A stretch of DNA of 33,659 nucleotides from Candidatus Bathycorpusculum hydrogenotrophicum (GTDB lineage: Archaea; Thermoproteota; Bathyarchaeia; Bathyarchaeales; Bathycorpusculaceae), in the NCBI GenBank assembly GCA_009783705.1, contig WRCX01000015.1, positions 1 through 33,659 on the forward strand, written 5' to 3'. A program made the translations under genes and the position numbers. Under the pieces are notes generated by a model, which was given only the letters and a program-made list of their open reading frames with translations, had not been told where the DNA came from and ran no database searches. Shown here piece after piece: positions 27,766-32,877 of this stretch; position 1 is the stretch's first letter, and each line of letters starts with the position of its first letter.

Positions 27766-28140
27766 ATGGATATCGTAGGATTATTGATACAAATAGTTGT
27801 TACTATAGTTGTCATTGCACCTATACTGTGGCTTGTTGGCAGAGTACTTGTAGGGAAACATAAAGCCAAATTCACAGATGCCATCTGGATAGTCGCGCTT
27901 GGTACAGTCATAAGCGCCATCGTTGGAGCTTTATTGGGCGGTGGTGTATGGGGCAGTCTGCTCTCAACAATCATCATGTTTGTTGTGTGGCTGGGGCTCA
28001 TTAAGCACTTCTTTGACTGCGGCTGGATCAAAGCATTTGTCATCGCGGTTATCACAGTGGTTGTCGCTGTCATCATATTGTTCCTGCTGGCACTCATAGG
28101 CATAGGCGTAGGCATCGGCATAGGCGCACTGGGCATCTAG
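27766..28140 (+). CDS. Small multi-spanning membrane protein of unknown function
   Basis: A very hydrophobic 124-residue protein with about four helices: about 5-26, 41-60, 62-82 and 88-122. A short basic loop (GKHKAKFTD) comes after the first helix, and one LIKHFFDCGW segment lies between helices 3 and 4. The last helix is rich in Gly/Ile (IGIGVGIGIGALGI). I chose this strand over the overlapping minus-strand frame because the hydrophobic pattern is regular, the other strand is Met/Thr/Pro-rich nonsense, and AGAAATACCACT-ATG gives a plausible start. No catalytic residue or family is evident. A T-rich tract follows the stop. Confidence 0.7.
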   Translation: MDIVGLLIQIVVTIVVIAPILWLVGRVLVGKHKAKFTDAIWIVALGTVISAIVGALLGGGVWGSLLSTIIMFVVWLGLIKHFFDCGWIKAFVIAVITVVVAVIILFLLALIGIGVGIGIGALGI

Positions 28141-28354: not shown

Positions 28355-28522
28355 TTATCGGATGGCTTCGTCTATTCTTTGGTCGCGTTTGGTTTTGGTG
28401 ACTTCTTTGAATAGTTCGAGGCATTCTTCTTTGGTTGGTGCTTCTATGCCTATGCTGCCATAGGCGCCGATGTCGATGCGGTATTTTTTTCTACCGTCTG
28501 CTCTTTCTTCTGTTAGGCTTAT
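28355..28522 (-). CDS. 55-residue hypothetical protein starting at ATA
   Basis: The frame encodes a charged, soluble small protein: SLTEERADGRKKYRIDIGAY, then SIGIEAPTKEECLELFKEVT, ending in KRDQRIDEAIR. It looks like a strand-strand-helix unit and has clear codon bias. A TAA lies two codons upstream, and between it and the conserved-looking sequence the only near-start codon is ATA (28520-28522). GGGAGAGGG lies about five to six bases before it, in the position of a ribosome binding site. It follows the DUF2110 gene by 92 bases on the same strand and may have its own promoter (TATAATAAAAAA region). I do not recognise a family. It may be a real gene with ATA initiation or a relic that has lost its ATG. 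Confidence 0.5.
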   Translation of the reverse strand: MSLTEERADGRKKYRIDIGAYGSIGIEAPTKEECLELFKEVTKTKRDQRIDEAIR

Positions 28523-28614
28523 TTTTTACCCTCTCCCTTTCGTTTTTAATTTTTTATTATACTAAATCGGATAACTAATTATGTTCCACTTATAAGGTTA
28601 GTCCCGGGGTACAC

Positions 28615-29361
28615 TTAAAACCGCGCTTTCTTTGCGGCAAAAACCACAAACACCGCATTGCGCATATAGCGTCCCATCCGGGAGACCAATCCTGCCGCAT
28701 CAGTGCCCAACTTGCAGACCAAAGCAAACTCAAACAATCCCAGCGGTTCCACATCGATAACGTCGCGGTTTAGTCGGGTCCGCTCAATCACCTCAGAAAC
28801 CAGTTCCTTAGATGCACGCAACACAATAAGTCTATCAAGAAGAGATTGCTGCCAGTTCTGCAACGTTGTGGCCTGTTCAGATGACAACTCGGCAGTTAAA
28901 ATATCTGCATCTTTTGAGATAACCCTAACACTTAGGGGCAACCCCTCAGTGATGGCATAGGCGTCGGTGATTTGTTTGAGCATAATATTTTTGCCATCAG
29001 CCAGCTGTAACTGCAGATTTGACAGGGGGACAACAGCTTGTGTTGCTTTGGGTTCAAAAACGCCCACATCCACCATCAGCCTCTGTTTTTCTATATCGAT
29101 TTTAGAAACATAACCCTTGAGCACCATATCAGCTTCTATTGCATCAAGACTAGCAGGACATATCCCGATTTCTTTGCGTATATAAGCGGTTGCTACCGCT
29201 TGATCTTCACCCTCAATAGATATCTGTACCCATCGGTTTGTGGGATTGCTTAGAATTTTTAGGTCTACATCGAGGTCTGCGAATTGGGTGTGTAATAATT
29301 CATCTATCTGGCGTATTTGGCCGCCGTTCCAGGCTTTTGTGAGCAAGGTCAGATTAGTCAT
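28615..29361 (-). CDS. DUF2110 family protein
   Basis: A 248-residue archaeal protein of the DUF2110 family (PF09883), recognised from its N-terminus MTNLTLLTKAWNG, the central NRWVQISIEGEDQAVATAYI and the GYVSKIDIEKQRLMVDVGVF segment. That last segment looks like an S1/OB-type RNA-binding strand set. The C-terminal part contains LDRLIVLRASKELVSEVIER and GLFEFALVCKLGTDAAG. The molecular function is unknown. It overlaps the upstream HD-domain gene by eight bases and closes an operon with tfe, trm56, hflX and mbf1, so a role in transcription or RNA handling is likely by association. Confidence 0.82.
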   Translation of the reverse strand: MTNLTLLTKAWNGGQIRQIDELLHTQFADLDVDLKILSNPTNRWVQISIEGEDQAVATAYIRKEIGICPASLDAIEADMVLKGYVSKIDIEKQRLMVDVGVFEPKATQAVVPLSNLQLQLADGKNIMLKQITDAYAITEGLPLSVRVISKDADILTAELSSEQATTLQNWQQSLLDRLIVLRASKELVSEVIERTRLNRDVIDVEPLGLFEFALVCKLGTDAAGLVSRMGRYMRNAVFVVFAAKKARF

Positions 29362-30474: not shown

Positions 30475-31083
30475 TTAGAATTCAATGTTGTTTGTTTTAA
30501 TTTCCTTACCGCGTTCTTTTGGGATAATGCTGATTTTTGCTTTTTCAAAGGGTCTACCTAGCTCTTGACCCCCAAAATATCGATCTAAAAAGAGAGCAAG
30601 AGCAGAACATTCGGAGTGAGGTTGATTGCCCACCGCAACATTAAAGTCAGAGACTTCAGGTGAGTAAAATTCACCAGGCACCTTTTGACTACCCACCAGA
30701 AGCATCACATCTTTATTTTGTACTTTAATACGGTTTAAAACATCACTTGTTTGAATATTCTCACCATAAGCAGTAAGATGTACAATAATACCACCTTGGT
30801 TTTTCCAGTCCCGAATGGCACTTTTCCATGGGATAGACATTTCAAATTTGAAGCCACCACCCCAAGTTTGGGTGATTTTAGCTATAGTTTCTTCGATATG
30901 CCGATCAGCAGTGTCAGCTAAAATAAAACCAGAGGCACCCAAAGCCCGGGCGGTTAGAGCAACATGAGTGGTGAGCCGCACATCACGCTGAACACGATGA
31001 CCCCAACGCAGAACCACAATTCGAGGGAAACCACTACTACCACTATTGTTGTTGTTGACTGGAAGTGAATTGGAATTTTCCAT
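30475..31083 (-). CDS. trm56: tRNA (cytidine-56-2'-O)-methyltransferase
   Basis: Archaea-specific SPOUT methyltransferase that methylates the ribose of C56 in the T loop of tRNAs. The 202-residue protein has the family start VVLRWGHRVQRDVRLTTHVA and ALGASGFILAD. The knotted SAM-binding C-terminal part has DVMLLVGSQKVPGEFYSPEV, then NVAVGNQPHSECSALALFLD. The N-terminal 20 residues are a low-complexity Asn/Ser stretch before the conserved part, encoded in the 41-base overlap with hflX. No later start codon is available before the conserved core, so this overlap seems real. Confidence 0.93.
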   Translation of the reverse strand: MENSNSLPVNNNNSGSSGFPRIVVLRWGHRVQRDVRLTTHVALTARALGASGFILADTADRHIEETIAKITQTWGGGFKFEMSIPWKSAIRDWKNQGGIIVHLTAYGENIQTSDVLNRIKVQNKDVMLLVGSQKVPGEFYSPEVSDFNVAVGNQPHSECSALALFLDRYFGGQELGRPFEKAKISIIPKERGKEIKTNNIEF

Positions 31084-32320
31084 TTAATATTTGGACCTTC
31101 TTTTTTATCTGCTCCATAATTGAGGGTTCAGCTTCGAGGATTATGTGCACGGAGTCATTTGTGAATTCTTCGTTGTGAATATCAGCTTTTTGATGTACCC
31201 AAGAAATAAAGGGCATCACATTACCGCTTAGAGGTACACTAAATTCTGCAGCCACATAGTGCTCAAGCACTCTAAGAACATATTTTTTGAGTTCATCAAG
31301 ATTGGTTTGACGTTTTGCGGAAAGCAAAAGAGGATTTTTAAGTTTATCTTTGAGAGCGGCAAGTTTTTCTGTTTGTTCTTGGGGAGTGAGACAGTCAATT
31401 TTGTTGAGAGCAGTTACGAGGGGGATATCAGAGGCACCGAGTTGTTCAATCGTTTGAAGACAGATATTATTTTTCTTCTCGATAGCGTTTAGGGGTTCGT
31501 CTAAATCTACAACCAATATTATGAGGTCAGCAAATATTGTTTCTTCAAGTGTTGAGTGGAACGCCTCAATCAGTGAAATAGGAAGTCGATCAATAAAGCC
31601 TACGGTATCGGTTAGAAGGAAACGCCGTCCGCTAAACTCTAGCATACGTGTCTGGGTTGAGAGGGTGGTGAAGAGACTTTTATCCACCAGAGCAGTTTCT
31701 TGGGTTAGGGCATTAAAGAGGGTACTTTTGCCTGCGCTGGTATATCCAGCCAGAGAAATTGTTAAAAAGCCTAATTCTGCACGCCGTTCTCTTTGTAAGA
31801 CACGTTTTTCTCGTATACGGCGGAGTTTTTTGCGTATGGTCTGTACTTGTGCCTTGATGGCATCACGATAGATGTCAGCTTCATAAACACCCAAGCCCAT
31901 AAATCCAGGCTGCTCACTACCCTTGGAGAGACGTACTTTTTCGCGGGCATGTCTGAGCTCGTTTTGAAGAGTGGCCAGCTGGATTTGGAGTTGAGCCTCG
32001 GTTGTGGTGGCTCGTCTACGGAAGAGCTCCAAAATAAGCTGGAATCGATCCATAACTTCAACATGGGTAGCTTTGGCCAAGTTGTAGTTCTGTAAGGTTC
32101 GAAGAGCATTATCAAAAATTATTTTTTGAGCGCCCGTTGTTTCAACGAGTTTAACAAGCTCTTCGACTTTGCCTGCACCAATTTGGTAACGGGCATCAGG
32201 TCGACGGGTCTGCTCCATAGTGCCAACTATGGTGTAGCCGGCAGTTTCGGCTAAGCTTTGGAGTTCTGCTAAGGTGGATTCTTCGCGGTTTAATCGGCGT
32301 TGAACTAAGATGGCTTTCGT
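31043..32320 (-). CDS. hflX: GTPase HflX, with an ACG start
   Basis: HflX is a ribosome-associated GTPase that splits or rescues stalled ribosomes. Motifs in full-length numbering: G1 GYTSAGKST (about 192-200), DTVGF (238-242) and NKID (306-309), with the family glycine-rich YQIGAGKVEEL upstream and a coiled linker of charged helices (110-180). The first ATG (32218) would begin inside the N-terminal domain. Upstream of it the frame keeps conserved HflX sequence (KAILVQRRLNREESTLAEL, then AETAGYTIVGTMEQTRRPD). It ends at a TGA just before GGAGG (32331-32335). The only near-cognate codon there is ACG (32318-32320), giving 425 residues beginning (M)KAILVQRR. It overlaps the mbf1 end by 16 bases and trm56 by 41. 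Confidence 0.9.
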   Translation of the reverse strand, partial: TKAILVQRRLNREESTLAELQSLAETAGYTIVGTMEQTRRPDARYQIGAGKVEELVKLVETTGAQKIIFDNALRTLQNYNLAKATHVEVMDRFQLILELFRRRATTTEAQLQIQLATLQNELRHAREKVRLSKGSEQPGFMGLGVYEADIYRDAIKAQVQTIRKKLRRIREKRVLQRERRAELGFLTISLAGYTSAGKSTLFNALTQETALVDKSLFTTLSTQTRMLEFSGRRFLLTDTVGFIDRLPISLIEAFHSTLEETIFADLIILVVDLDEPLNAIEKKNNICLQTIEQLGASDIPLVTALNKIDCLTPQEQTEKLAALKDKLKNPLLLSAKRQTNLDELKKYVLRVLEHYVAAEFSVPLSGNVMPFISWVHQKADIHNEEFTNDSVHIILEAEPSIMEQIKKKVQILNGKFQFTSSQQQQ

Positions 32321-32838
32321 TTGCCAGGTGCCTCCTCAGCGGGTTTAGTCATATCGATGAGGTCACCCAAAGTTAAACCGTCACTAGCCAGTTTTTTGGG
32401 CGTTGTGGCAGTTACTTTTTCGTCTACAATCGGAACCATCAATGTGATTTTTAGGGCATGCTCCAGCTTGTTTGCAAGCTGGTTGGTGGGTGCAATTTTG
32501 CCGGTTTCAATGTGCCGCAACACAGAAGCTTTTTCGTTGATTTTTTTACCCAAATCCTCATGAGACAGGCCTAGTTTTTCTCTGACTGAACGGATTTTGG
32601 CGGCATAGTCATCGACGACCTCGGTGGTTATTTGCACCTGTGCAACAGGCGGTTTTTTCATGATGACGGGGATATGTGCATACGATTTGGTTGGACTGGG
32701 CTGTGAAATTGCTACTTCTTCATGCATTACGACTTTACCGTGTTTAGAGCACTCAACACACACGGTCAGCTTGGCGCCTTCGATTATCGCACGCACGGGA
32801 TCCGTGTGGATTTTGCGTCCGCAGACTTCACATCGCAT
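32305..32838 (-). CDS. mbf1: Multiprotein bridging factor 1 homologue (zinc ribbon + HTH)
   Basis: A 177-residue archaeal MBF1. The N-terminal zinc ribbon uses Cys3, Cys6, Cys27 and Cys30 (MRCEVCGRKI, then VCVECSKHG). A flexible linker (about 40-70) and a Cro/C1-type helix-turn-helix follow (AAKIRSVREKLGLSHEDLGK, then EKASVLRHIETGKIAPTNQL). The tail is charged. In archaea MBF1 associates with ribosomes and has been proposed to act in translation as well as transcription, which fits its place as first gene of an operon with hflX, trm56 and tfe. It starts 39 bases from the divergent PUA-domain gene, so the two share one promoter region. Confidence 0.93.
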   Translation of the reverse strand: MRCEVCGRKIHTDPVRAIIEGAKLTVCVECSKHGKVVMHEEVAISQPSPTKSYAHIPVIMKKPPVAQVQITTEVVDDYAAKIRSVREKLGLSHEDLGKKINEKASVLRHIETGKIAPTNQLANKLEHALKITLMVPIVDEKVTATTPKKLASDGLTLGDLIDMTKPAEEAPGKRKPS

Positions 32839-32877
32839 GTAAAATAATCACCTTTCAGAGAGTTTTATTATGTTGTT

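Follow-up and report, generated by a model that had tools for sequence, protein, structure and literature searches.

The window, the 33,659-nt stretch of Candidatus Bathycorpusculum hydrogenotrophicum DNA analysed here, carries on its minus strand a gene for a 55-amino-acid protein (28355..28522), recognized by its translation, by 33 homologous copies and by codon-level selection. An ATA at 28522-28520 opens a run of 55 sense codons that closes with a TAA stop at 28357-28355, and the translated product reads ISLTEERADGRKKYRIDIGAYGSIGIEAPTKEECLELFKEVTKTKRDQRIDEAIR. The initial annotation had described a 55-codon frame starting at ATA and had left its strand unstated; that frame is borne out and runs from 28522 to 28355 on the minus strand, the plus strand of the same stretch being interrupted by stops. 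ATA is indeed its sole available start, with ATG, GTG and TTG all absent from the frame, and the TAA said to lie two codons ahead is present at 28526..28528 (minus strand), followed by AAA and then the ATA, so that no in-frame upstream start is possible in this genome. The purine-rich sequence noted just upstream is GGGAGAGGG (28529..28537, minus strand), a Shine-Dalgarno-type site 6 nt before the ATA, and further upstream a BRE/TATA-like promoter element, CTAACCTTATAA (28590..28601, minus strand), aligns with ATTAACCTTATAA of relatives. The upstream neighbour is a DUF2110 gene (28615..29361, minus strand; Pfam), which lies upstream in 19 of the 33 loci. A convergent gene on the plus strand (27766-28140) encodes a 124-residue hydrophobic protein that belongs to no Pfam family (best E 0.68) and is conserved near the small gene in some relatives.

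An open frame of 55 codons is not counted as significant in itself; homology is what counts. The 33 copies come from 21 of the 100 relatives searched (own genome included) and all lie in the genus of the window, which presumably bears the name Candidatus Bathycorpusculum throughout; among the named records, Candidatus Bathycorpusculum acetigenerans and Candidatus Bathycorpusculum termitum have a copy. A profile search of 32 genus genomes finds copies in 21 and none in 11, and returns a weak further copy in genome G006 (E 3.3e-4). A distant relative of the small protein in G006 (contig C3, 3985-4161, plus strand), 28% identical to the window copy and ending in IDEAVR, carries GAGAGG followed by an ATA, with a TTG two codons after the latter. 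Across the class, 23 of 256 genomes match in a profile search, the sole solid match outside the genus being in a member of the same family (G170, E 1.5e-24); a match in G152 (E 9.4e-4, with a stop inside) is at chance level and was rejected as a true homologue. A phylum-wide draw of 398 genomes gives 12 matches, ten in the genus and two at chance level; G547 and G479, whose matches are at that level, were likewise rejected as homologues outside the genus. The own genome holds a second copy (contig C6, 3439-3615, plus strand) with a TTG start, which sits between a PQQ beta-propeller protein and hypD (Pfam) and has a similar TATA-type element and a GAGAGGGG box. The gene does not behave as a viral one, its chromosomal neighbours being steady in 28 of the 33 loci, and one scan for viral contigs gave 7 candidate stretches, none of them confirmed.

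Substitutions are concentrated at silent positions. Between the window copy (L001) and L005, both with ATA, codons 14-55 carry 17 synonymous changes over 27.7 sites and no non-synonymous change over 98.3 sites; in the same codons L002 and L003 differ from the window copy by 4 and 7 silent changes and no amino-acid change, and L004 by one amino-acid change and one silent change. Over the last 42 codons, pN/pS is 0.115 for all pairs of the 33 copies, codons 2-13 being freer (for example, 4 changes over 29 non-synonymous sites between L001 and L005), and none of the 33 matches contains an inner stop. Homology and selection together rule out a chance open reading frame, and on these comparisons it is close to certain that the stretch is a real small-protein gene.

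Scanned one by one, the 33 members have no significant match in Pfam, NCBIfam or PHROG (best E 0.078, 0.066 and 0.016, the last without function), and a profile search of PDB sequences likewise has none (best E 0.92). A structure model (pLDDT 78.5, pTM 0.42) predicts, with modest confidence, a beta-beta-alpha-alpha arrangement, that is, a beta hairpin and two helices, with an N-terminus that has no predicted structure. Foldseek returns 74 matches to this model at E<=10 and none at E<=0.001, and the best VIA-align Z is 2.0, so that neither comparison yields a usable relationship. The neighbours in the 33 loci give no readable function for the protein; its near-constant sequence under extreme purifying selection suggests that it may bind a conserved partner.

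At the matching start place, ATG stands in 17 copies, ATA in 7, TTG in 5, ATT in 4 and ATC in none, the start of each copy having been assigned by eye (ATG, TTG or an Ile codon after the purine site) together with the alignment. Homologues with ATG at the same place, which the initial annotation had proposed to look for, thus make up 17 of the 33. It had also allowed that no homologue might exist anywhere, or that homologues might extend upstream past the TAA; 33 copies were found, and the TAA two codons before the ATA closes the frame in both L001 and L003. Its suggestion of an undescribed small archaeal protein gains support from the homologues with ATG, TTG, ATA or ATT at the matching place and from the strong purifying selection. 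Ile and Met share one alignment column except in L009, L019 and L021, whose longer N-termini led the aligner to place the Ile as many as two columns ahead of Met. In nine of the 11 copies with ATA or ATT the upstream frame lacks a canonical start; in the remaining two a canonical start is possible, at a GTG six codons upstream and beside the purine site in L004, and at ATG, TTG or GTG 11-15 codons upstream in L020. An in-frame stop precedes the ATA with one codon between in L001 and L003 and with five in L007 and L021. ATC is found at none of the 11 Ile starts, whereas internal Ile codons are ATC in 27 of 68 cases (P about 0.004, a value that ignores relatedness), a shortage that is suggestive. 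A general reading of AUA as Met was rejected, the invariant Ile columns 16, 18 and 24 using ATC, ATA and ATT. Judging from the frame and its relatives, ATA is very likely the start codon of the window copy, and standard gene callers, by their start-codon rules, would be expected to skip the copies with ATA or ATT.

In 24 of the 33 copies, drawn from every start class (ATG 14/17, ATA 5/7, TTG 3/5 and ATT 2/4), GAGAGGG is found no more than 20 nt from the start. It is unlike the usual ribosome site of the own genome: it occurs 40 times on both strands of 434 kb and only twice ahead of an ATG with a 50-codon frame, and GGAGGT occurs 158 times. A TATA-type pattern that was drawn up with the sequences in view occurs in 29 of the 33 upstream stretches, whereas 200 shuffles give 1.0 on average and 4 at most; the window copy is among its 4 misses and is included in the 31 of 33 stretches that carry a second pattern, written afterwards. 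The element is present in all 17 aligned leaders, out of the 19 behind DUF2110, and no RNA structure is predicted in 17 of the 19 (L009 and L017 left out). The gene had been placed downstream of a DUF2110/TFE operon; it does lie behind DUF2110 in 19 of 33 loci, but because it has its own conserved TATA-type element it is probably not simply the tail of that operon.

The copies occur in three locus settings. The 19 copies behind DUF2110 comprise 5 with ATA, 4 with ATT and 10 with ATG, a non-canonical start being conserved among species in the manner of infC and sigR. Nine copies lie beside hydrogenase-maturation (hyp) genes, recognized by Pfam as HypD, HypF and an AIRS-domain protein read as HypE, and have TTG in 5, ATA in 2 and ATG in 2; the five copies beside neither all have ATG. 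In a tree of DUF2110 proteins from the 19-locus set, the genomes with ATA, five in all, group together as a clade (100/99), as do two of the ATT genomes (100/99), and the other two ATT genomes fall with an ATG genome (97/99), which places ATT in two separate branches, with several forks left open. If ATG is ancestral, these relationships suggest that it was left at least twice at the DUF2110 locus and that ATA then persisted. The initial idea of a gene that lost its start holds insofar as an ATG was probably replaced; the gene itself has not decayed. By these comparisons, the small protein is a new family with a conserved non-canonical start.

The window holds a second probable non-AUG start, in the gene for the HflX GTPase (31043..32320, minus strand; Pfam GTP-bdg_N, GTP-bdg_M and MMR_HSR1). 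Its first canonical codon is an ATG at 32218, and the conserved protein sequence reaches 34 codons further up, to a candidate ACG start at 32320-32318 (minus strand) with GGAGG at 32335-32331; judged by this conservation, HflX probably starts at the ACG, and taking the ATG at 32218 as the start would leave the annotated protein short at its N-terminus. HflX is found in 31 of the 32 genus genomes, and the 30 loci read have ACG in 28, ATG in 1 and ATT in 1; in 30 genomes that belong to the same order but to other genera the start place holds ACG in 22, ACA in 4, ACT in 2, ACC in 1 and ATA in 1. Both sets together have ACG in 50 of 60 loci, directly preceded by a stop codon in six, and elsewhere in hflX genes ACG serves for 14% of Thr. 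Where HflX has ACA, ACC or ACT, the codon just ahead of it is ATA, ATG or CTG in 6 of 7 loci, versus 0 of 50 where it has ACG (Fisher 2e-7; the sequences are related, so Fisher P values for HflX are only a guide).

A confounder is the upstream HTH gene, which overlaps in most genomes and whose CGA Arg codon could hold the HflX ACG; in the window it is an HTH_3 protein gene (32308-32847, minus strand; HVO_2718-like regulator match, below the curated cut-off), whose product we take to be aMBF1-like. In 16 loci the upstream HTH frame ends at or near the HflX start; these have ACG in 7, ATA, ATG or CTG one codon before in 6, ATT or ATA at the place in 2 and an unclear start in 1 (Fisher 0.005, from hand-entered counts, the upstream frame being one that could not be told in 5 loci). 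In some loci a GTG or TTG 5-9 codons downstream could serve as the start. A further 29 of 30 HflX loci were read, among them three more of the same order, with ACG in 2 and ACA after ATT in 1; outside the order, those loci have TTG, GTG or ATG in many cases and are unclear in others, with no ACG. In another family of the phylum (f50), the HflX genes of four loci (L187, L188, L189 and L192) have no obvious canonical start at the conserved N-terminus.

General use of ATN starts has no sign in the sampled fifth of the own genome. Among 369 ORFs in 434 kb, the share preceded by a ribosome site is 0.060 for ATA, 0.045 for ATT and 0.037 for ATC, and 0.193 for ATG, 0.122 for TTG and 0.090 for GTG, a coarse comparison in which non-start codons reach 0.150 (TCG) and 0.096 (GGT). 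A pairwise survey of 434 kb of the own genome versus 400 kb of G004 gave 105 non-overlapping pairs, many of them shadow frames (excess third-position change in only 65 of 105 by an ungapped count). Of the 28 rows judged by eye, only that of hflX clearly shows the protein conserved upstream of its first canonical start, and a few rows with 10-16 codons ahead of a canonical start (for example, L086 at 11405) may be further cases. Because ATA, ATT and ATC show no ribosome-site enrichment and hflX is the sole clear survey case, the weak starts look gene-specific in these data. An altered initiator tRNA was rejected as an explanation: the own genome has a tRNA-Met with an ordinary CAT anticodon and a GGG/CCC anticodon stem (pattern GGGCTCATAACCC; ARAGORN tRNA-Met (cat)), a stem that we take to mark the initiator. 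As to the pattern itself, it also picks up other NAT variants in other genomes, ARAGORN finds no tRNA at L220, one of the four pattern loci submitted to it, and a reversed control pattern also matches.

The place of the start, the promoter-like element and the conservation of ATA and ATT can be read directly from the aligned sequences. On this basis, and by analogy with bacterial genes, we lean towards a stand-alone gene with its own promoter, in which Met initiation at a weak AUA would be kept for low, stringency-dependent expression. Transcription would begin from the gene's own TATA-type promoter, the strong purine site (GGGAGAGGG) would position ribosomes at the AUA, and initiator Met-tRNA would pair with this near-cognate codon, so that the protein begins with Met though AUA otherwise means Ile. 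The weak start would then keep output low and dependent on start-codon stringency (aIF1/aIF2), a form of control modelled on the AUU of infC and the GTC of sigR in bacteria. As far as the accessible parts of the sources go, IF3 in bacteria discriminates against weak starts, and infC (ATT) and sigR (GTC) use such starts for control (PMC5472188); in S. solfataricus, aIF1 favours discrimination against non-canonical starts (PMC6237735, PMC8211752). Regulation at the ATA/ATT start is plausible by this analogy. Ten of the 19 orthologues at this locus still have ATG, so a weak start is not required.

There is appreciable room for a less probable reading, in which the gene and its ATA start are real and the weak start is merely tolerated, a strong ribosome site compensating for it, low expression being enough and drift doing the rest. 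ATG, TTG, ATA and ATT do coexist among copies with nearly identical proteins, and none of the start classes lacks a purine-rich site. On the other side, AUG-to-AUU switches appear once in 61,358 ancestral AUG starts in the accessible part of a study of close genome triples (PMC5622118), a count that depends on annotated starts and is probably an underestimate, whereas here ATG, if ancestral, gave way to ATA or ATT at least twice, and five species have kept ATA over a span in which 17-19 of about 28 sites changed silently. It is very unlikely that initiation takes place elsewhere or otherwise, through RNA editing of the AUA, a start within the purine site or coupling to the stop of DUF2110, which lies about 90 nt upstream: the GTG beside the purine site in L004 and the upstream canonical starts in L020 would suit such a reading, but in L001, L003, L007 and L021 an in-frame stop lies close before the start, the ATG copies have their ATG after the same kind of site (L031 weakest), and the gene has its own TATA-type element. 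Decay or an assembly error, in which mutation or a sequencing slip removed the ATG and left the frame as a remnant, would fit the missing canonical start in the window genome but is rejected as next to impossible by the ATA common to a clade of five species (four in named records from different samples), the ATT in two branches, the unchanged amino acids of codons 14-55 in L002, L003 and L005, and the want of inner stops.

A broader proposal, which we consider rather unlikely, is that selection in Bathyarchaeia maintains near-cognate starts on a few genes, ACG on hflX and AUA or AUU on the small gene, whose synthesis would then read out the stringency of archaeal initiation. The small protein, whose gene has the unusual GAGAGGG box, might itself contribute to this control, perhaps as a binder of its own leader or of the small ribosomal subunit. 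Archaeal start-codon choice rests on aIF1 and a eukaryote-like core, and variation among ATG, TTG, ATA and ATT ahead of an almost constant protein is a natural experiment on that choice. Conserved weak starts hint that these archaea keep such codons on some genes for a reason, and the case illustrates that small genes may escape annotation despite their conservation and that a known GTPase may be annotated with a truncated N-terminus.

In the open-access literature covered, mainly listings with a few passages, no archaeal gene with a natural conserved AUA, AUU or ACG start appears. In infC, which encodes IF3 and starts with ATT or ATC in E. coli and Streptomyces, a near-cognate AUN replaces the canonical start, as in the small gene, and according to the accessible part of the source this start serves translational control (PMC5472188), which for the small gene would be conjecture. 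The infC product is itself the fidelity factor, forming a closed loop, whereas the small protein has no known link to initiation; the fidelity factor, IF3 for infC, would in archaea be aIF1. The GTC start of sigR in Streptomyces, repressed by IF3, is likewise non-canonical and misplaced by annotation (PMC5472188, accessible part), but sigR encodes a known protein and was tested experimentally, whereas the small gene is known here from sequence alone. Small ORFs found by Ribo-seq in M. mazei are, like the small gene, short and missed by annotation; they start with ATG, TTG, GTG and, in 5%, CTG, and the accessible part of that report names no ATA or ATT (PMC11456600). Another parallel is HflX of this Bathyarchaeia order, which in the same genomes and in the same window has a probable non-AUG start after a GGAGG-type site; unlike the small gene, it belongs to a known GTPase family, and its ACG mostly overlaps the end of an upstream HTH gene.
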